A stretch of DNA of 52,875 nt from assembly GCF_002128425.1 (NCBI RefSeq), contig NZ_NESS01000020.1, positions 1 through 52,875 of the forward strand, written 5' to 3'. Positions 22,590-39,451 of the stretch are shown in pieces. Source of the stretch: Gottfriedia acidiceleris (GTDB lineage: Bacteria > Bacillota > Bacilli > Bacillales > Bacillaceae_G). A program made the position numbers and the translations under genes. A model generated the notes under the pieces. That model was not told the origin of the DNA, did no database searches, and saw only the letters and a list, made by a program, of their open reading frames with translations. Position 1 is the first letter of the stretch. Every line of letters begins with the position of its first letter.

Positions 22590-22635
22590 TTTACACTTTC
22601 ACATTGAATAAGTATAGTTAGTACAATCCATACTG
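22590..22635 (+). promoter_or_regulatory. Promoter candidates before fin
   Basis: Two overlapping possibilities: a sigma-A type TTTACA 22590-22595, 17-base spacer, TATAGT 22613-22618; and a sigma-G-like GAATA 22606-22610, 18-base spacer, CATACTG 22629-22635 (last base off consensus). B. subtilis fin is transcribed in the forespore, which favours the second, but sequence cannot decide. Confidence 0.4.
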
Positions 22636-22668
22636 TATATATGAATTTTTTGTAGTATGGAGGAAGTA

Positions 22669-22902
22669 ATGGAATTATTAGATTGTCAGTGTCGTTATTG
22701 TTATAAACAAATGGGTAGTATTGAAAAACAACAGTTGTTACAAGTTTCATCTTCGTATTGTCATTCTTTCGATGAAGAATTAAGCGATTTTGTAAATTTT
22801 ATTCAATCTCCTAATCAAGTAATTTATATTGTGTGCGAGGATTGCGAAATGACTCTAGCTGAGTTTCCACATTACCATGAGTATAAGAATTTCATAAATT
22901 AA
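22669..22902 (+). CDS. fin: Anti-sigma-F factor Fin (YabK)
   Basis: 77-residue zinc-binding protein of the Fin family. In B. subtilis Fin binds sigma-F and helps the switch from sigma-F to sigma-G in the forespore. Two cysteine pairs are visible: CRYC at residues 8-11 (after C6) and CEDCE near 59-63. ATG 22669 lies four bases after GGAGGA; the upstream ATG at 22657 overlaps that site. Location between pth and mfd matches B. subtilis yabK. Like csfB at the left end, it is a small zinc regulator of forespore sigma factors. Confidence 0.88.
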   Translation: MELLDCQCRYCYKQMGSIEKQQLLQVSSSYCHSFDEELSDFVNFIQSPNQVIYIVCEDCEMTLAEFPHYHEYKNFIN

Positions 22903-27656: not shown

Positions 27657-29246
27657 TTGCAAAAAGCTAAGCAAAAAGCAGCCCTACAAGGGGCTTTGTT
27701 CATAACAATGGCATCATTATTATCTAAAGTACTAAGTGCGTTTTATAAAATTCCTTATCAAAATATTGCTGGCGATTTAGGTTACTATATTTACCAGCAG
27801 GTATATCCTGTCTATGCAATTGCTTTAGCTTTTTCTACATATGGCTTTCCTTTAGTTTTATCATCTTATGTGGCTGAAAGATTGGCGAAAAAAGATGATA
27901 AAGGAGCTAAAGATTTGGTTTATGCAACATTTATGATGTTGTTAGTCATTGGTATATTATGTTTCTTTACTTTATACGTAGGAAGTAATAGTATAGCGAA
28001 ATTTATGCGTGATGATCATCTAGCGATGTTAATTCGTGTAGTTAGTGTTGGCTTTTTATTTGTTCCAATAACATCAGCATTTCGAGGATATTATCAGGGT
28101 TTAGGTGATATGGGACCTACTTCAGTCAGTCAAGTGATTGAGCAATTAATTCGAGTTGTTACGATTTTAGTGCTGTCACTTTATTTAATGCAAACGACTG
28201 ACAATCTTTATATTGTAGGTGCAGGGGCTGTTTCAGGTTCAATACTAGGTAGTATAGCAGCGATACTGTACTTCTTTTATTGGGTTTCTTTTCGTGGCTC
28301 TGGTTTAACAATACCATCATTTGGTTTACTTAAAACCTATCGTGTAGAATTAAAAACAATTTTGTATCAAGGTATCTTACTAAGCTTAAGTAGTTTAGTA
28401 CTTGTATTCATTCAATTTATCGATTCACTCTCTTTTTATCCGTTATTAGTACAATATGGGTATCATGTTGAAGGTGCTAAGCTAGTAAAGGGTATTTATG
28501 ATCGTGGATTTCCGCTAATTCAATTAGGCTCTGTCATTGCTTCATCTTTTTCACTGGCTCTAATTCCGTACTTATCTAGTGAATTAGTTCGTAAAGAACA
28601 TCATTCTATAAATAATCGAATTTCAGGTGCCATAAGAGTAAGTATAGTAGTTGGAGCAGCAGCAACAATTGGTTTAATTTCAATTATCCATCCGACCAAT
28701 ATAATGCTTTATCGAAATGATTTAGGAACGGATGTCCTAACTGTTTTATGTATTTCGATCTTCTTTGCTGGAGTATCGATTACGACATCTTCTATCGCTC
28801 AAGGTTTAGGAAAAAGCTTAATCCCAGCTTTAAATGTAATTGCTGGAGGATGTGTTAAGTTTATTGGAAATGTTATTTTAATGGAGCAAATCGGATCTAA
28901 AGGAGCAGCATATTCAACAGTATCTGCTTTAATCATTGTTACGATTTTAAACTTAGCTTACATATATAAATTGTCAAATGTAACATTTTTTGACTTTAAG
29001 TTTATTGTGAAATTACTAATTTCTTTAGCTGTTATGTATGGTAGTGTTTATGGTTATGAATATGTATTTGAAAAATATGCAATGTTTATTAACCCGCTTC
29101 GTTTAAGAATGTTAGTTGAAGCACTATCTTCAGCGGTTGTAGGAGCAATAGTATTTGCGGTTGTATTAATTAAAATTAAGTTATTTACAGTAGAAGAGCT
29201 TAGCTCGATTGTTAAAAGCGAAAAATTACTAAAATGGCTTTCTTAA
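27657..29246 (+). CDS. yabM: Polysaccharide/lipid flippase family membrane protein (YabM, MATE/MOP superfamily)
   Basis: 529-residue integral membrane protein of the SpoVB/MurJ-like group, with about 14 hydrophobic segments spread along its whole length. The N-terminus QGALFITMASLLSKVLSAFYKIPYQNI is characteristic of this group. Members move lipid-linked sugars across the membrane; the substrate of YabM is not established. It begins at TTG 27657 with AAAGGAG upstream. mazG follows after 18 bases, so yabM, mazG and rqcP are probably one operon, as in B. subtilis. Confidence 0.88.
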   Translation: MQKAKQKAALQGALFITMASLLSKVLSAFYKIPYQNIAGDLGYYIYQQVYPVYAIALAFSTYGFPLVLSSYVAERLAKKDDKGAKDLVYATFMMLLVIGILCFFTLYVGSNSIAKFMRDDHLAMLIRVVSVGFLFVPITSAFRGYYQGLGDMGPTSVSQVIEQLIRVVTILVLSLYLMQTTDNLYIVGAGAVSGSILGSIAAILYFFYWVSFRGSGLTIPSFGLLKTYRVELKTILYQGILLSLSSLVLVFIQFIDSLSFYPLLVQYGYHVEGAKLVKGIYDRGFPLIQLGSVIASSFSLALIPYLSSELVRKEHHSINNRISGAIRVSIVVGAAATIGLISIIHPTNIMLYRNDLGTDVLTVLCISIFFAGVSITTSSIAQGLGKSLIPALNVIAGGCVKFIGNVILMEQIGSKGAAYSTVSALIIVTILNLAYIYKLSNVTFFDFKFIVKLLISLAVMYGSVYGYEYVFEKYAMFINPLRLRMLVEALSSAVVGAIVFAVVLIKIKLFTVEELSSIVKSEKLLKWLS

Positions 29247-31418: not shown

Positions 31419-32026
31419 GCTTAAACGTTCAGTTCTACTCAATGATAGCGATGGTCGGTATGGGTGCTTATCTTGGTATGGCACTAGATACATACCATCG
31501 TTTTTTATATCGAGGTACTCGTAATCGACTGATTGTATTTGCAACTGATATATTATTTTGGATTTTTCAAGCTCTACTAGTTTTTTATGTATTATACTTA
31601 GTTAATGAAGGTGCACTCAGGTTTTATTTACTATTGGCTTTACTTTGTGGTTATGCGGCATACCAAAGTCTTTTTCGAACGATTTATAAAAAGATATTAG
31701 AATTTGTTATTCAGCTAGTCATTAGTATTTATCGCATTATAGTAAAGTTAATTTTATTTTTTATCGTAAAACCTATAAAGTGGATTATTCAGGTAATAAT
31801 CGTAATTCTTTTGTTTATTTATGGACTCCTTATTCGACTAATCCGTTTACTTTACAACGTTGTACTATCAATTCTCTTGTTTTTCGGCAGAGTATGTTGG
31901 TTTTTTGTGCCAAAACGAGTCAAAAACTATTTAATACAATTTAAAGGAGTTTTTAGAAAATTCAAGAATATCTTCCTTACTACTATTAAAAAAGTAAAGG
32001 ACCTTTTAGATAGGAGGAAGAAATAG
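31415..32026 (+). CDS. yabQ: Spore coat/cortex biosynthesis membrane protein YabQ
   Basis: 203-residue membrane protein required for spore cortex formation in B. subtilis. Several hydrophobic segments are visible (about 6-25, 40-60, 67-85, then a long region 95-165 rich in I, L and V), followed by a basic tail. ATG 31415 overlaps the yabP stop by four bases. It ends one base before the divIC start codon, and its last codons contain the AGGAGG site for divIC, so a cell-division gene depends on transcription through a sporulation gene. Confidence 0.9.
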   Translation: MSLNVQFYSMIAMVGMGAYLGMALDTYHRFLYRGTRNRLIVFATDILFWIFQALLVFYVLYLVNEGALRFYLLLALLCGYAAYQSLFRTIYKKILEFVIQLVISIYRIIVKLILFFIVKPIKWIIQVIIVILLFIYGLLIRLIRLLYNVVLSILLFFGRVCWFFVPKRVKNYLIQFKGVFRKFKNIFLTTIKKVKDLLDRRKK

Positions 32027-32404
32027 GTGGAACATGCGAGAAAGTTGGATCTAACTAGCCAAGTTCAAGATAAACAAAATATTACTTTAGTTGAGGAACA
32101 AGGTGTTAAGACTGGGAGAAGGAGTTTTAAAAAGTTTTTAGTGCGCATTTCGTTATTCTGCTTTTTATCTGTCCCCCTATTTTTTTTATTACAATCTCAT
32201 TATGAAACACAGCAACATGTTTATTCTTCTAAAGTAAAACAATTAAAACTAGCAAAGGTTGATTTAAAGAAAACAAAGAGTACGGTATCAGATTCAAAGC
32301 GCATGATTGACCAATTGAACGATGACCAATATATTATTGAGTTAGCAAGGAAAAATTTATTTTTTTCTAAAAAAGGAGAAATAATCTTTCCCAATATCAA
32401 GTAA
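32027..32404 (+). CDS. divIC: Cell division protein DivIC (FtsB family)
   Basis: 125-residue bitopic division protein that works with FtsL and DivIB at the septum. Order: cytoplasmic N-terminus (1-37), one membrane helix (about 38-58), an external coiled coil (about 62-98), and the conserved tail ELARKNLFFSKKGEIIF. GTG 32027 follows AGGAGG (32012-32017) inside yabQ. No promoter is seen in the 3' end of yabQ, so transcription from upstream is likely. It is essential in B. subtilis. Confidence 0.92.
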   Translation: MEHARKLDLTSQVQDKQNITLVEEQGVKTGRRSFKKFLVRISLFCFLSVPLFFLLQSHYETQQHVYSSKVKQLKLAKVDLKKTKSTVSDSKRMIDQLNDDQYIIELARKNLFFSKKGEIIFPNIK

Positions 32405-32415
32405 TTATCGTTTCA

Positions 32416-32445
32416 TTGACACTTGTTTTTATAATTTTATATAAT
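32416..32445 (+). promoter_or_regulatory. Strong sigma-A promoter of yabR
   Basis: TTGACA 32416-32421, 18-base spacer, TATAAT 32440-32445; both hexamers are perfect. It lies 12 bases after the divIC stop. Confidence 0.85.
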
Positions 32446-32489
32446 ATAGTAAATCCAGTTAAACATTTTTAAGGAGGAGCATTTTTTTT

Positions 32490-32960
32490 ATGTCAATTGA
32501 GGTAGGCAGCAAAGTTAGTGGGAAAGTTACAGGGATTACAAATTTTGGTGCTTTTGTTGAGTTACCAGAAGGAGTAACTGGACTTGTTCACATTAGTGAA
32601 GTAGCTGACAACTATGTTAAAGATATTAACGAACATTTAAAAGTTGGCGACGAAGTAGAAGTAAAAGTAATTAATGTTGAAAAAGACGGTAAAATTGGCC
32701 TTTCAATCAAAAAAGCGAAAGAACGTCCACCAGTAAAAGAGGGAGAGCGTGAGCAAAGACCTCGTCAAAGTAGACCTTCATATGGAGGCGGCGGTGGTGG
32801 AAACCGTGGTAAAAATCAAAACCGTTCGGATCAACGTCCGGTTAAAGAAACATTCGATCAAAAAATGAGTAAATTCTTAAAAGACAGTGAAGATCGTCTA
32901 GCTTCATTAAAACGTAACACAGAATCTAAACGTGGTGGCCGCGGAGCTCGTCGAGGCTAA
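32490..32960 (+). CDS. yabR: S1-domain RNA-binding protein YabR
   Basis: 156-residue protein with one S1 RNA-binding domain (about 1-75; GKVTGITNFGAFVELPEGVTGLVHISEVA). A basic, glycine- and arginine-rich tail follows (about 80-156) containing a YGGGGGGNRG stretch. Related to general stress protein 13; likely ribosome- or RNA-associated. ATG 32490 follows AAGGAGGAGC. A perfect promoter and a terminator make it monocistronic. Confidence 0.92.
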   Translation: MSIEVGSKVSGKVTGITNFGAFVELPEGVTGLVHISEVADNYVKDINEHLKVGDEVEVKVINVEKDGKIGLSIKKAKERPPVKEGEREQRPRQSRPSYGGGGGGNRGKNQNRSDQRPVKETFDQKMSKFLKDSEDRLASLKRNTESKRGGRGARRG

Positions 32961-32998
32961 TTTCCTACCTTGTCAGGACATAAATAGGTATATAGAAC

Positions 32999-33026
32999 AC
33001 GCACCCTTTAATGGGTGCGTTTTTGT
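32999..33026 (+). terminator. Terminator after yabR
   Basis: ACGCACCC 32999-33006 pairs with GGGTGCGT 33013-33020, loop TTTAAT, then T run. Confidence 0.92.
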
Positions 33027-33064
33027 ATTAGAAAAAAATAATAAAATAACATGTAAAAAAACTA

Positions 33065-33093
33065 TTGACGGTTAATTAGTACCATGATAATAT
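33065..33093 (+). promoter_or_regulatory. Promoter of the tRNA pair
   Basis: TTGACG 33065-33070, 17-base spacer, TAATAT 33088-33093, 24 bases before tRNA-Met. Confidence 0.6.
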
Positions 33094-33116
33094 AAATCTT
33101 GTCGTTTAAAGATAAT

Positions 33117-33193
33117 GGCGGTGTAGCTCAGCTGGCTAGAGCGTACGGTTCATACCCGTGAGGTCGTGGGTTCGACTCCCTCCGCCGCTACCA
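33117..33193 (+). tRNA. tRNA-Met (CAT), elongator type
   Basis: 77-base tRNA with a 7-bp acceptor stem (GGCGGTG with CGCCGCT), D arm with AGCTCAGCTGGCTAGAGC, anticodon CAT at 33151-33153, T arm GGGTTCGACTCCC and encoded CCA at the 3' end. The Watson-Crick-like acceptor end and close match to the B. subtilis gene at the same locus indicate elongator rather than initiator. Confidence 0.95.
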
Positions 33194-33204
33194 TTCCCTT
33201 TAAC

Positions 33205-33276
33205 GGCCCGTTGGTCAAGTGGTTAAGACACCGCCCTTTCACGGCGGTAACACGGGTTCGAATCCCGTACGGGTCA
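33205..33276 (+). tRNA. tRNA-Glu (TTC)
   Basis: 72-base tRNA starting GGCCCGT, anticodon TTC at 33238-33240, T arm GGGTTCGAATCCC, acceptor 3' strand ACGGGTC and discriminator A. No CCA is encoded, unlike the neighbouring tRNA-Met, so CCA must be added by tRNA nucleotidyltransferase. Confidence 0.95.
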
Positions 33277-33285
33277 TACAACAAC

Positions 33286-33330
33286 AAAAACGTTTAGTCT
33301 CTACAAGAGAGGCTAGGCGTTTTTTTCTTT
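33286..33330 (+). terminator. Terminator after the tRNA pair
   Basis: 17-bp stem with several G-U pairs, 33286-33302 with 33308-33324, loop ACAAG, followed by T-rich sequence. Beyond it, 33331-33540 is AT-rich with no gene. Confidence 0.85.
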
Positions 33331-33540
33331 CCTTGTCTATGCCTCAGTTTCTTTTAAAATTAATTTCTTCATTCTATACGTTCTCTCTTTATTCTGAATT
33401 TCGATTGACATAAAATTTAATAATTGCGTTTCTTTTACCCTATTAGAGAAATTATGCTGCAAGCTTTTCTCATATTTTGTAAAACAGTTGTACGTAAAAG
33501 CTTTTTCCGTCGAAGAAAACTTTTATTTGCCTTTGTCATT

Positions 33541-33573
33541 TTGACATATTCCTTCAATTGGACAAGTTAAAAT
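33541..33573 (+). promoter_or_regulatory. spoIIE promoter with 21-base spacer (sigma-A, Spo0A-type)
   Basis: TTGACA 33541-33546 and TAAAAT 33568-33573 are separated by 21 bases. The B. subtilis spoIIE promoter is known for the same 21-base spacing and needs Spo0A. Imperfect 0A boxes are nearby: CGTCGAA at 33508-33514 and, on the other strand, TTGTCCAA at 33558-33565. Confidence 0.7.
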
Positions 33574-33607
33574 ATGTTCAATAAACCAAATCGGATGAGG
33601 TGGAAAT

Positions 33608-36082
33608 ATGACGAAACTGCAAAGAGGGTCTTCTAATTCTTCAGCAAGCTTAGTCCCTACTAATGGATTTCAATCAGTATTTCGGCAATCTTCTAAATCA
33701 ATTAAGTCCAAATTAGAGAGAGCATTCTTTGACTTTGGGCTACTAATCTTTATAACGGGATTTTTATTAGGTCGAGCGTTGATACTATCACATATTCTCC
33801 CGTTTGTATTACCGTTTTTTGCCTCAGTTTATATGATGAAACGTGAGCGTACAGGTATAGCCTTTGTTGCTCTTATGATTGGTTCATTAACTGTGTCGAT
33901 TGAAACGGTTAGTTATGCATTTGCCACAATTGTCCTATTTTTTATCCTAAATATTTTCTTCGCTAGAGTTAAACGACATTATATAGGTCTAGTACCTTTT
34001 CAAGTTTTTTTATCAGTCTTTATTAGTCATCTATTAATTGCATATGCTTTTCAACAAGAAGTTCTAATGTATGATGTTTTAATGGCTTCAGTTGAAGCGG
34101 GATTAAGTTTTATTTTAACAATGATCTTTTTCCAAAGTGTACCTCTACTTGCGATTCCTAAAAGAAAACAGCTTTTAGGTGTTGAAGAAATCGTATGTTT
34201 AGTTATTCTTTTAGCTTCGGTTGTGACGGGGACAACTGATTGGTATATTCAAGATTTATCTATTCAACATATTGTTACTAGATATATTGTCTTACTATTT
34301 GCCTTCGTAGCAGGAGGAACGGTCGGTTGTACAGTAGGGGTTGTAACTGGTCTTATACTAAGTCTAGCAAGTGTTTCGAGTCTCTATCAAATGAGTTTAT
34401 TAGCATTCTCGGGATTACTTGGTGGCCTGCTTAAAGAGGGAAAAAGATTAGGTGCAGCAGCTGGACTATTAATTGGGACATGCCTAATTAGCTTTTACGC
34501 TGAGAAACAGTCAGATATTATTTTTTCAATTATTGAATCAGTAATTGCCATCGTATTATTTTTAATAACACCATCTTTCCTGCTAAAGCAATTAGCTAAA
34601 CTAGTACCAGGAACAGAAGAACACTCTACAGATCAACAACAATACTTGCGTAAAATAAGAGATTTGACAGCTAATCGAATTAATCAATTTTCGAATGTGT
34701 TTGAAGCATTATCTGCAAGTTTTTCACAGCCAAGTCAGTTTGCACATATTGAAGATGAATTAACGGATGAAGAATTGTTCATTTGCAGTATTTCAAATAA
34801 GTGCTGTAATAGCTGTATGAAAAAGGACCATTGCTGGTCAAACAATGGTGACCGAACATATCAATACATGGAAAATATGATGCATTTAGTTGAAAAGGAT
34901 CAGCTCATTAAGAATGGCCAATTTATGAGAGAATGGGAAAAATATTGTCAGCGTTCTTCAAAAATGGCTGATTTAATGAAACAAGAGGTCTTCTACTTCC
35001 GTGCAAATCAAAGACTTAAAAAACAAGTTCAAGAAAGTAGAAGGTTAGTGGCAGAGCAATTACGCGGAGTTTCAAAAGTAATGGTTGATTTTGCAAAAGA
35101 GATTCAACGTGAAAAAGAAAACCATCAATTACAAGAGGACCAAATCCTACAGGCTTTATTAAACTTTGGAATTGATGTTAGCCAAGTAGAAATTTATAAC
35201 TTAGAGCAAGGTAATATTGATATAGATATATTAATTCCGTTTGAAAACGAGTATGGTGAATGTCAAAAACTAATTGCGCCAATCCTATCGGATATTTTAA
35301 AAGAGACAATTGTTGTATTAAAAGAAGAGGCAGCGACAATTCCAAATGGAGGTAATTATTTAGTTACATTTGGATCAGATAAGGCATTTGTTATTGAAAC
35401 TGGAGTTGCGACTGCAGCTAAAGGTGGAGGCTTTATATCGGGTGATGCTTTTAAAATAATGGATGTTGGAGCAGGAAAGCATGCTATTGCGATTAGCGAT
35501 GGAATGGGAAATGGCGAAAGAGCTCATATTGAAAGTAATGAAACACTTAAACTACTTCAAAAAATATTAAATTCAGGCATTGAAGAAACAGTCGCTATTA
35601 AATCGATTAATTCGATTCTATCTTTACGCACGACTGAAGAGGTCTTTGCTACATTAGATTTAGCGATGGTCGATTTACACGATGCTTCAGCGAAATTCTT
35701 AAAAATTGGTTCTTCACCAAGCTTTGTTAAACGAGGTAAGCAAGTTATTAAAATTGAAGGTAGTAATTTACCAATCGGTATTATTGATGAATTTGATGTA
35801 GAAGTCGTAAGTGAGCAATTAAAAGCTGGAGACTTACTTATTATGATGAGTGATGGTATTTTTGAAGGACCTAAACATGTTGAAAATTACGAAATGTGGA
35901 TGAAACGTAAAATAAGCGAATTTGAAACAGATGATCCACAATCGGTAGCAGAATTGTTACTTGAGGAAGTAATTCGTTCGAATACAGGCGATATTAATGA
36001 TGATATGACGGTTGTGGTTGCTGTTGTTAAACGAAACTTGCCAGAGTGGTCATCTATCTCATCATATAGTGCGATGGCTTAG
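33608..36082 (+). CDS. spoIIE: Stage II sporulation protein E, PP2C-type phosphatase
   Basis: 824-residue membrane phosphatase that dephosphorylates SpoIIAA to switch on sigma-F in the forespore and helps form the polar septum with FtsZ. Residues about 40-330 contain roughly ten membrane segments. A central region (about 330-585) includes a cysteine cluster CSISNKCCNSCMKKDHC near 397-413. The C-terminal PP2C domain (about 590-810) shows AISDGMGNGERA and LIMMSDGIFEG, plus DDMTVVV, with the metal-binding aspartates. ATG 33608 follows GAGGTGG. A Spo0A-type promoter lies upstream. A hairpin that also covers the yabS ribosome binding site lies just after the stop. Confidence 0.96.
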   Translation: MTKLQRGSSNSSASLVPTNGFQSVFRQSSKSIKSKLERAFFDFGLLIFITGFLLGRALILSHILPFVLPFFASVYMMKRERTGIAFVALMIGSLTVSIETVSYAFATIVLFFILNIFFARVKRHYIGLVPFQVFLSVFISHLLIAYAFQQEVLMYDVLMASVEAGLSFILTMIFFQSVPLLAIPKRKQLLGVEEIVCLVILLASVVTGTTDWYIQDLSIQHIVTRYIVLLFAFVAGGTVGCTVGVVTGLILSLASVSSLYQMSLLAFSGLLGGLLKEGKRLGAAAGLLIGTCLISFYAEKQSDIIFSIIESVIAIVLFLITPSFLLKQLAKLVPGTEEHSTDQQQYLRKIRDLTANRINQFSNVFEALSASFSQPSQFAHIEDELTDEELFICSISNKCCNSCMKKDHCWSNNGDRTYQYMENMMHLVEKDQLIKNGQFMREWEKYCQRSSKMADLMKQEVFYFRANQRLKKQVQESRRLVAEQLRGVSKVMVDFAKEIQREKENHQLQEDQILQALLNFGIDVSQVEIYNLEQGNIDIDILIPFENEYGECQKLIAPILSDILKETIVVLKEEAATIPNGGNYLVTFGSDKAFVIETGVATAAKGGGFISGDAFKIMDVGAGKHAIAISDGMGNGERAHIESNETLKLLQKILNSGIEETVAIKSINSILSLRTTEEVFATLDLAMVDLHDASAKFLKIGSSPSFVKRGKQVIKIEGSNLPIGIIDEFDVEVVSEQLKAGDLLIMMSDGIFEGPKHVENYEMWMKRKISEFETDDPQSVAELLLEEVIRSNTGDINDDMTVVVAVVKRNLPEWSSISSYSAMA

Positions 36083-36101
36083 TAAAATAAAATAAATAAA
36101 G

Positions 36102-36131
36102 GTTTATCCCCTCCCGTAATTGGACAAAATG
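36102..36131 (+). promoter_or_regulatory. Candidate sigma-F promoter of yabS-yabT
   Basis: GTTTA 36102-36106, 15-base spacer, GGACAAAATG 36122-36131. The -10 matches the sigma-F pattern GGnnAnAHTR at every fixed position, and the -35 differs from GYATA by one base. The predicted start, near 36138, falls downstream of the left arm of the hairpin at 36106-36156. Forespore expression has been reported for B. subtilis yabT. Confidence 0.6.
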
Positions 36132-36156
36132 GTAACAACTTTTACGCGGAGGGGAT
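36106..36156 (+). promoter_or_regulatory. Hairpin covering the yabS ribosome binding site; may also end spoIIE transcription
   Basis: ATCCCCTCC-CGT 36106-36117 pairs with ACG-C-GGAGGGGAT 36144-36156: 12 bp with one bulged C. The right arm contains the yabS site GGAGGGG (36148-36154). TTTTG follows, a weak U-tail. RNA from spoIIE would hold both arms; RNA from the sigma-F promoter would lack the left arm. Confidence 0.6.
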
Positions 36157-36161
36157 TTTGT

Positions 36162-36896
36162 ATGTATAAGGGAAAGTTAAAACAAATTCTATTAATAACA
36201 GATGGTTACTCAAACCATGGTGAAGATCCGTTAGCTGTTTCAAGCCTGGCGCAAGAATACGGTATTACGGTAAATGTAATTGGAATTTTAGATGAAAATG
36301 TACAAAGTGGTGACGGGTTAAAGGAAATCGAAGAAATTGCTAGAGCGGGTGGAGGGATTAGTCAAGTTGTTTACACGAAGCAACTTTCTCAAACCGTCCA
36401 AATGGTTACTAGAAAAGCGATGACACAAACAATTCAAGGATTTGTTAATAAAGAATTAAAGCAAATATTAGGCGACAGTAATTCAATTGAATCACTTCCT
36501 CCTTCAAAGCGAGAAGAGGTATATGAGGTTGTTGAGGATATCGGTGAAACTGTAGGTTTAGAAGTTATTATTTTAGTAGATACAAGTGCTAGTATGAAAG
36601 AAAAACTAGAAACTGTTAAGGAATCATTATTTGATTTACAAATTAGTTTAAACTCAAGAACAGGAGAAAATGCCTACTCATTATTTATATTTCCCGGGAA
36701 ACATGACGATGTAGACAAATTACTAGATTGGACACCTAAATTAGAAAAACTAAATACAATTTTTCCTAAGTTAACGATGGGTGGTATGACACCAACTGGT
36801 CCTGCGCTACGTGAGGCTTTAAACTATTTTAACGAACAAAACTACGATAGAGGTAATAATGGTGATGATGAACAATCAATTGAATGGGCAGATTAA
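36162..36896 (+). CDS. yabS: VWA-domain protein YabS
   Basis: 244-residue protein of unknown role with von Willebrand factor A features. A degenerate motif ILLITDGYSNHGEDP lies near the start. A second, fuller MIDAS-like set, VIILVDTSASMK (DxSxS), lies near residue 132, followed by GGMTPTGPALREAL near 205. ATG 36162 follows GGAGGGG by seven bases. The longer frame from 36120 would start inside the hairpin. It overlaps yabT by 38 bases, which implies coupling between this VWA protein and the kinase. Function is inferred only from domains and context. Confidence 0.85.
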   Translation: MYKGKLKQILLITDGYSNHGEDPLAVSSLAQEYGITVNVIGILDENVQSGDGLKEIEEIARAGGGISQVVYTKQLSQTVQMVTRKAMTQTIQGFVNKELKQILGDSNSIESLPPSKREEVYEVVEDIGETVGLEVIILVDTSASMKEKLETVKESLFDLQISLNSRTGENAYSLFIFPGKHDDVDKLLDWTPKLEKLNTIFPKLTMGGMTPTGPALREALNYFNEQNYDRGNNGDDEQSIEWAD

Positions 36897-37998
36897 TTTA
36901 GCTCCTGGGACTCTCATTACTGGAAAGTGGAATAAAAACAAATACGAAATTAAGAGTTTACTTGGAAATGGAGCAAATGGAACAGTTTATCTAGCATCTG
37001 GAAAAACTGGGGATGTTGCTATTAAACTAAGTAAAGATTCTACTAATATTACGAACGAAGTAAATGTTTTAAAAAAAATCACACAGGTCCAGGATTCATT
37101 CCTTGGGCCTTCTTTTATCGATGTAGACGACTATATAAATCCAGGAACGAATGAATGCTGCTATTACTATGTTATGGAATACGTAAATGGTGTAAGTTTA
37201 CCAAAATTTATTGAAAGAAATGGAATGGAATGGAGTAGTATTTTTATCATACAAGTTTTATCCTTGTTAGATAAATTGCACCATAAGGGCTTCGTTTTTG
37301 GAGATTTAAAAACAGATAATCTACTAGTTACGAAAGAGCCTAATAAAATCCAGTGGGTCGATTTTGGAGGAGTTACTCAAATTGGACGTGCAGTTAAAGA
37401 GTTTACGGAGTTCTTTGATCGTGGTTACTGGGGCTTAGGTTCTAGAAAAGCAGAAATTTCCTATGACTTATTTGCTGTTACGATGATTTTTATCCACTTG
37501 CATTGTAAAAAACAGTTTTTAAAAAATGGGCAGGGAATAAATCAAATTGAACAAGTAATAACTCAAACACAGACTCTTAATCCATATAAAGAATTTCTTA
37601 TGAAAGGATTAAAAGGGGAGTATGTTAGTGCAAGTGCGATGAAACAGGCTCTATTGATGTATGAACAAAAGATAAATGCTACAAAAAAGAAGAAGAGTAA
37701 AAAGGTTCAAACTACTACATCACAAACCAATTCGATTAATCAAACGAGGCAATCGAAAAAACAAAGTCAGTCTGCTAACCAAACAACAAAATCAAAAAAA
37801 AATAGTCAGTCTACAAATCAAACTAGACATTCAAATAGTCAGAATCAAAAACCTAGCCAATCAACACAGACAAGAGCAGCGAACAATGTCCAAGTGAAGC
37901 AAAAGAAAAAAAGAATTCATTGGTTCGAAACATCAACCATTCTCTTGTTAATGGGCTTGGCCTATGCATTATATTTTTACTATCAGTTGAAATTATAG
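36859..37998 (+). CDS. yabT: Serine/threonine protein kinase YabT
   Basis: 379-residue Hanks-type kinase with a C-terminal membrane anchor. In B. subtilis YabT is active at sporulation, is stimulated by DNA and phosphorylates RecA and other DNA-associated proteins. Visible: glycine loop GNGANGTVYLA near 35; the catalytic lysine in VAIKLSK near 53; GDLKTDNLL replacing the usual HRD motif near 145 (as in B. subtilis YabT); and DFGGV near 165. Residues about 275-350 are a low-complexity Q/S/N/K linker. A membrane helix WFETSTILLLMGLAYALYF ends the protein. Start ATG 36859 follows AGAGGT; ATG codons at 36865 and 36868 are alternatives. Confidence 0.9.
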   Translation: MVMMNNQLNGQINLAPGTLITGKWNKNKYEIKSLLGNGANGTVYLASGKTGDVAIKLSKDSTNITNEVNVLKKITQVQDSFLGPSFIDVDDYINPGTNECCYYYVMEYVNGVSLPKFIERNGMEWSSIFIIQVLSLLDKLHHKGFVFGDLKTDNLLVTKEPNKIQWVDFGGVTQIGRAVKEFTEFFDRGYWGLGSRKAEISYDLFAVTMIFIHLHCKKQFLKNGQGINQIEQVITQTQTLNPYKEFLMKGLKGEYVSASAMKQALLMYEQKINATKKKKSKKVQTTTSQTNSINQTRQSKKQSQSANQTTKSKKNSQSTNQTRHSNSQNQKPSQSTQTRAANNVQVKQKKKRIHWFETSTILLLMGLAYALYFYYQLKL

Positions 37999-38062
37999 TA
38001 CTCCAAGTGTTGGAATGGTAACATAAAGATATGAATTTTACTTTCATTAGGAGTATAGGTAA

Positions 38063-39451
38063 ATGGTAATTAATCAATTAAAGGGATTTATAAAACAAAA
38101 CAATATTGTCAGAAACAGTGTCATTGTGATTGGTGTTTCTGGAGGTCCAGACTCGATGGCGTTAGCTCACTCATTTTTATCGATCAGAGAGGACTATGGG
38201 TTCTCGATTATTATCGCACATGTAGATCATATGTTTAGAGGACAAGAATCTTTAGATGATTTGGAATATGTTAAGAATTGGTGCCTCCAGAATAAAGTTC
38301 AATATGAAGGTAAGAGTATAAATGTGAATCAGTATATCGAGGAAACGGGGTTAAGTAGTCAATTGGCGGCAAGGGAATGTCGATATCGTTTTTTTGATGA
38401 AATCATGAAGAAATATGGAGCGAATTATTTAGCGCTAGGTCATCATGGGGAAGATCAAGTTGAAACGATTTTGATGCGGTTAGTAAGAGGTAGCTCGCGG
38501 ATCGGTTACGCCGGCATTAGGGAAAAAAGGTCTTTTAGTACTGGCGAAATTATTCGTCCATTTTTAGATTTAAGAAAACAAGAATTAACTACATATTGTC
38601 AAAAGCAAAGTATTATCCCCCGAAAAGATCCAAGCAATGATAAAGATGTTTACACAAGAAATCGATTTAGACATCATATTCTACCTTTTATTTTTGAAGA
38701 AAACCCAACTGCACAAAAAAGATTCCAGCAGTTTAGTAGACAACATTTGGAAGATGAACTATATTTAATGGAATTAACTGAAGACGCAATGAATACAGTT
38801 ATAAAAAATAAAGAAAAGCAAGCAGTCACTATTGATATTAATCAGTTTTTAAATGTGCCTATATCTTTACAAAGAAGGTGTATTCAACTAATATTAGAAT
38901 ATGTCTACCTATATCTACCTAAAGGCTTGACACAAGGGCATCTTAATTCAATTCTGACTTTATTACGAAATGAAAAATCCACTTGGGAGCAGCATTTACC
39001 TGAAGGACTTTTTGTCACACGCTCATATAATGAATGCACCTTTACATTCGAACAAATGAATGTGAAGGATTATACTATTTCCATTAATGAGCCGGGTGTA
39101 TATGAACTACCAAATGGTTTTTCGATAAAAGTTGAATTAAACAATCAATGTTTTGAACCAAAAAACGACATGTTTATTTGTTCTGTCAAGGATGTTTCTT
39201 TTCCACTCATTGTTCGGAATCGAAAGAATGGTGATCGAATGTCATTAAAAGGTATGAATGGGTCAAAAAAGTTAAAAGATATATTTATTGATGAAAAAAT
39301 GAAACAATCATTACGTGATGAATGGCCAATAATTACGGATAGTCAAAATAACATATTATGGGTACCTTTCGTAAAGAAATCTGCATTTGAAAGAAATTTT
39401 TCGACAGATGAGTCACTCATTGCAATACAGGTGGTTTCTAAGAGTTTCTAG
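38063..39451 (+). CDS. tilS: tRNA(Ile)-lysidine synthase
   Basis: 462-residue N-type ATP pyrophosphatase that converts C34 of tRNA-Ile (CAU) to lysidine, so that it reads AUA. The PP-loop GVSGGPDSMAL is at residues about 24-34. ALGHHGEDQVETILMRL near 130 and the C-terminal TilS domain with RNRKNGDRMSLKGMNGSKKLKDIFID near 390-415 are visible. ATG 38063 follows ATTAGGAGTATAGG. TACTCC at 37999-38004 could pair with GGAGTA of that site. hpt and then ftsH follow, the conserved tilS-hpt-ftsH order. Essential in B. subtilis. Confidence 0.95.
   Translation: MVINQLKGFIKQNNIVRNSVIVIGVSGGPDSMALAHSFLSIREDYGFSIIIAHVDHMFRGQESLDDLEYVKNWCLQNKVQYEGKSINVNQYIEETGLSSQLAARECRYRFFDEIMKKYGANYLALGHHGEDQVETILMRLVRGSSRIGYAGIREKRSFSTGEIIRPFLDLRKQELTTYCQKQSIIPRKDPSNDKDVYTRNRFRHHILPFIFEENPTAQKRFQQFSRQHLEDELYLMELTEDAMNTVIKNKEKQAVTIDINQFLNVPISLQRRCIQLILEYVYLYLPKGLTQGHLNSILTLLRNEKSTWEQHLPEGLFVTRSYNECTFTFEQMNVKDYTISINEPGVYELPNGFSIKVELNNQCFEPKNDMFICSVKDVSFPLIVRNRKNGDRMSLKGMNGSKKLKDIFIDEKMKQSLRDEWPIITDSQNNILWVPFVKKSAFERNFSTDESLIAIQVVSKSF

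Follow-up and report, generated by a model that had tools for sequence, protein, structure and literature searches.

We predict that a sigma-F promoter in the Gottfriedia acidiceleris window (the whole 52,875-nucleotide stretch of DNA that was analyzed) doubles as part of an RNA lid on the gene that it serves. At positions 36102-36164, the -35/-10 spacer, which the promoter itself would leave untranscribed, may also be the 5′ strand of a hairpin over the yabS start site. RNA reading through from spoIIE would contain both strands, fold into a 14-pair hairpin and hide the Shine-Dalgarno (SD) sequence, whereas RNA begun near 36138 would be without the 5′ strand and have an open SD. The sigma-F transcript would then be the only source of YabS and probably also of YabT, the kinase whose gene overlaps yabS. 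Judged from sequence, it is probable that the spacer acts as such a lid and gates YabS/YabT translation by the choice of transcription start site. From this arrangement we infer the start site itself, the size of the repression, the coupling of YabT and the confinement to the forespore. The features of the spoIIE-yabS junction are as follows.

33608-36082, + strand: spoIIE (TIGR02865, 816 bits), the co-directional upstream gene and presumed source of read-through RNA
36102-36106, + strand: sigma-F -35 box GTTTA, assigned from the sigma-F consensus; the same promoter type is found at 225/225 yabS loci
36106-36119, + strand: left arm of the lid, nearly all within the promoter spacer, from folding, complementarity and the genus alignment
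36122-36131, + strand: sigma-F -10 box GGACAAAATG, lying within the loop of the hairpin
36137-36140, + strand: predicted transcription start, placed by spacing
36142-36156, + strand: right arm of the lid, with a bulged C at 36147, from folding and the genus alignment
36148-36154, + strand: yabS Shine-Dalgarno sequence GGAGGGG, inside the right arm
36162-36896, + strand: yabS, a von Willebrand A-domain protein beginning at ATG 36162 (PF00092, PF13519; relatives)
36859-37998, + strand: yabT (PrkT), a serine/threonine kinase (NF058632, 402.8 bits, cut-off 280) that overlaps the yabS 3′ end

The -35 box begins 19 nt after the end of spoIIE and is separated from the -10 box by a spacer of exactly 15 nt; GTTTA, this spacing and GGACAAAATG fit the sigma-F consensus. 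This spacer, TCCCCTCCCGTAATT, can base-pair with TTACGCGGAGGGGA, a segment that contains the yabS SD; the SD is located seven nt upstream of the ATG. Positions 36106-36119 pair with 36142-36156 in a stem with one bulge, closing a loop of 22 nt. An earlier note on this DNA had described a 12-bp stem. The hairpin is present, and its length is 14 pairs, with two extra A-U pairs beside the loop. The note rightly placed GGAGGGG in the right arm, and the positions bear out its sigma-F promoter with the -10 box in the loop and the -35 box adjoining the left arm (the final A of the -35 box is the first base of that arm). The left arm lies upstream of the -10 box and of the predicted start, and since the loop contains the -10 box, RNA begun near 36138 cannot carry this arm. 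The YabS proteins of the G. luciferensis (L001) and G. acidiceleris (L002) loci are 99% identical to that of the window.

In the predicted long RNA the ribosome site is taken up by the hairpin. Folding of an 81-nt segment gives -22.9 kcal (z -2.34), a modest result that 6/200 shuffles equaled. The spacer paired against the start region gives -22.7 kcal, with a shuffled mean of -11.3, and 2/20,000 spacer shuffles are equally good; none of 26,371 15-mers from elsewhere on the + strand (sampled every second position) pairs as well. The predicted cost of opening the window's start region is 17.0 kcal in the long RNA versus 5.1 kcal in the short RNA. Of the 53 gene starts that were tested in the window, yabS shows the greatest upstream-dependent occlusion (p 0.020), and the 53 starts together have no occlusion excess (median -0.3 kcal, 19/53 above the shuffled mean, three with p<=0.05). 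Second highest is the gene at 27657-29246, presumably yabM by gene order; its p of 0.020 is about chance level for 53 tests.

Of 397 genomes sampled from the order, 367 have a YabS match. At least eight of the 30 genomes with no match are from one genus (g42), in which yabS may have been lost. A promoter scoring above 8 is present at all 225 yabS loci, and the spacer is 15 nt in 221 of them; this set includes near relatives, a few duplicates and loci used for matrix training. For an even sample we used a single locus per genus for 120 genera, plus the window (121 loci, in which genera are not independent samples); at least five YabS-positive genera (g131 to g135) lie outside it.

The lid is conserved across this sample. 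With short flanks and 60 shuffles per locus of the spacer only, the median cost of opening the SD-to-start region is 11.5 kcal when the promoter is in the RNA, 7.2 kcal when its spacer is shuffled and 2.6 kcal in RNA from the promoter. The predicted short RNA therefore leaves the ribosome site open, and the cost stays at 2.2 to 2.7 kcal when the assumed start is shifted by as much as 6 nt. Native opening cost exceeds the shuffled mean in 109/121 loci (p<=0.05 singly in 55), and 12 loci fall below their own shuffles. Pairing of the SD by itself is less telling (87/121 below the shuffled mean, p<=0.05 in 42), and the number of pairs per locus does not separate native spacers from shuffled ones (median 12 versus 11). 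The loci L323 and L324 carry an 11-pair lid; over 226 residues their SpoIIE fragment has 100% identity to one of solved structure, which we take to be that of the B. subtilis protein.

In a positional scan of the 121 loci, complementarity to the start site peaks in the -35/-10 spacer (-11.4 versus -7.6 shuffled, at +6), and windows at least 9 nt before the -35 box or at least 18 nt past its start differ from shuffles by +0.07 to -0.81 kcal. In minimum-energy folds the spacer pairs with the SD in 79/121 loci, with the SD-start linker in 16 and with neither in 26. Base composition could in principle produce such pairing, as pyrimidine-rich promoter spacers would pair with any purine-rich SD, and both shuffled and foreign spacers do pair to some degree. 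Spacers from foreign genera pair fairly well (native -11.0, foreign -9.0; median rank of the native spacer 0.28, best 5% in 27/121). We consider this explanation highly improbable, given that native spacers exceed composition-matched shuffles at 109 of the 121 loci and at the 2/20,000 level in the window. It is also opposed by covariation: the flanks of the SD partner pair at 0.61 versus 0.53 with swapped partners, a difference reached in 0/1000 permutations. This measure needs an anti-GGAG 4-mer in the spacer and covers 80/121 loci, the other 41 having no usable one.

Compensatory changes in the two arms had been named in the earlier note as a check. Within the genus (eight distinct sequences) they are seen at the pair 36116/36145, which is G-C in four, G-U in one and A-U in three; the genus alignment overall is weakly informative, with a covariation score reached by 25/500 shuffles. 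A repressor of the sigma-F promoter might instead bind the inverted repeat as DNA, since the repeat flanks the -10 box. G-U pairs, which break a DNA dyad, make up 190/1320 of the spacer-to-leader pairs in the minimum-energy folds, there are 119 distinct spacers in the 121 loci, and the partner is the SD in some loci and the linker in others, as counted above. An operator is the least probable of the readings that we considered.

The spoIIE gene is upstream on the same strand in 119/121 loci (the other two gave no match), with a median of 25 nt and a maximum of 486 between its stop codon and the -35 box. Lid strength at the yabS loci does not correlate with distance to spoIIE (rho -0.10, p 0.27). 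According to passages of PMC5857382, yabS-yabT of B. subtilis are predicted to share an operon with spoIIE, and Buescher 2012 is credited with establishing their joint transcription. In excerpts of PMC12541555, spoIIE, yabS and yabT of B. methanolicus rise together between two growth media (log2 0.77, 0.77 and 0.85). Given the reported co-transcription, a long spoIIE-yabST RNA is likely to exist, and the lid would silence it.

The earlier note had also treated the segment as a 3′ hairpin of spoIIE. The hairpin lies 23 nt past the spoIIE stop and is followed in the window by TTTT, so that it could be an intrinsic terminator or 3′-end stabilizer with SD pairing as a by-product. We find this very unlikely. 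Runs of at least four T between the SD and the start are present in only 8/121 loci, the window included, transcription continuing into yabST is reported (PMC5857382, in the passages cited above), and at three other genes, sigG, spoIIR and fin, the occlusion excess follows the start region (below). A scan of 35900-36400 gave no terminator-like site; it allowed loops of 3-8 nt only and therefore could not count this hairpin. As a candidate intrinsic terminator of spoIIE, expected to have a GC-rich stem, short loop and U tract, the hairpin was rejected, having a 22-nt loop and TTTT only. The terminator role of the segment is thus unsupported, and comparison across loci gives good support to its other two roles, as promoter and as lid on the ribosome site. 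No Rfam family other than two tRNAs reaches the gathering score in 32000-39000.

A lid that works as predicted would account for the silence of a compartment-specific kinase whose gene is copied along with spoIIE. According to passages of PMC4837961, yabT is under sigma-F control, and the kinase has RecA as a target in vitro and EF-Tu as a target both in vitro and in spores. With such targets, early YabT synthesis could be costly.

The precedent of sigG (described below) led us to extend the analysis to other forespore genes. Using 30 shared genomes and a test that needs no promoter, we asked if the stretch between -75 and -24 occludes the start region (-15 to +3) to a greater extent than dinucleotide shuffles of it. 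Native occlusion exceeds the shuffled mean in 28/30 genomes for yabS (median gain +5.6 kcal, p<=0.05 in 21), in 29/30 for sigG (+7.0, p<=0.05 in 23) and in 29/30 for spoIIR (+4.6, p<=0.05 in 14). There is no excess for gpr, presumably a forespore gene (13/30, median -0.2, p<=0.05 in one). The promoter finder trained on yabS failed on gpr (median score 1.5), so gpr was compared by the promoter-free test only. For fin, 33/34 loci exceed shuffles (+4.6, p<=0.05 in 15); this lid was expected beforehand, after the -10 region was seen by eye to pair with the SD, and 2/36 sequences had no fin match. Vegetative genes from the same parts of the genome, pth (15/34), prs (12/28) and mfd (12/35), have no gain, mfd going slightly in the opposite direction (p 0.008).

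The genes with an excess often follow an earlier gene on the same strand. The nearest upstream open reading frame has, by eye, the SigE C-terminus at 21/30 sigG loci, and a PrmC motif lies upstream of spoIIR at 20/30, with one confirmed in each case; fin follows pth in the window. At gpr the nearest upstream frame is on the other strand in 24/30 loci; in 20 of these its start looks S20-like by eye, and one is confirmed as S20. The 5′ strand fills the promoter spacer at sigG (-15.7 versus -8.2 shuffled) and is shifted to the spacer end and -10 box at spoIIR (-10.2 versus -6.4), where the scan used the 20/30 loci with a promoter score of at least 10, the ten below 10 being left out. An earlier promoter-based test of spoIIR was weaker (23/30 above shuffles, p<=0.05 in 13). 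Lid strength at spoIIR has a median of 5.0 with prmC near (11 loci) and 4.0 with prmC far or not found (19 loci). Some stems among the spoIIR loci (L288-L317, one per genome) are long and perfect, for example that of L302. Flank covariation at sigG is not significant (54/1000 permutations).

In the Gottfriedia acidiceleris genome only yabS is significant singly; sigG has p 0.20, spoIIR p 0.30 (promoter-free p 0.07) and fin p 0.37. In the window's fin site (22627-22671; relatives L343-L377), the -10 region at 22627-22634 can pair with 22654-22661 at the SD. The sole fin locus of 34 that is not above shuffles (L371) is from a B. subtilis-group genome (G425). We lean towards a general rule of forespore insulation, in which an anti-start-site strand lies in the untranscribed promoter and only RNA begun there would be translated, its cases being yabS behind spoIIE, sigG behind sigE, spoIIR behind prmC and fin behind pth. 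The failure at B. subtilis-group fin, together with the weak values that sigG, spoIIR and fin have in the window's own genome, slightly lowers our confidence in this rule. The pattern was reached by following leads and not by a blind survey, and gpr alone is the divergent control.

The genes prmC and pth are vegetative. spoIIR is often behind prmC and fin behind pth, and both have the occlusion excess, so the lid may be real and yet block any read-through, growth included, with no special purpose of confining YabS/YabT to the forespore. We regard this as a possible but less favored account of its purpose. In its favor, spoIIE, yabS and yabT change together in the B. methanolicus cultures (excerpts of PMC12541555). 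The two purposes overlap, and at yabS the upstream gene is spoIIE. That gene is expressed before septation, which makes confinement the simplest purpose at yabS. Should the rule extend to sigG, spoIIR and fin, forespore genes would be misreported by mRNA levels taken alone, and the leak would be testable by one mutation per gene.

The mechanism is already known from phage T4 and has been proposed for sigG. In T4 e, soc, 49 and I-TevI, the long early RNA hides the ribosome site and late-promoter RNA without the 5′ strand is translated, according to passages of PMC3014915 and PMC2988022. Unlike the yabS lid, those of T4 involve late promoters and timing in the phage cycle and have no homology to it; the yabS lid has a sigma-F promoter and, if our reading is right, would provide control by cell compartment. 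The closer parallel is sigG (spoIIIG) of B. subtilis. Passages of PMC5942855, citing Sun 1991 and Masuda 1988, describe a hairpin proposed to block translation of PspoIIG read-through RNA, which cannot form in RNA from PsigG, the promoter used by sigma-F. The 5′ strand at sigG lies within the promoter spacer (30 genomes), as at yabS. The two differ in that sigG follows sigE and yabS follows spoIIE, and that, in the same passages of this 2018 paper, sigG has a stem of 20 or more pairs (14 at yabS) and its short RNA has a small hairpin of its own in the leader. We found no such hairpins at yabS/yabT, spoIIR or fin in open-licence literature, where absence is weak evidence. What appears to be new, from sequence comparison, is a start-site occlusion excess shared by the forespore genes yabS, sigG, spoIIR and fin, often behind an earlier co-directional gene.
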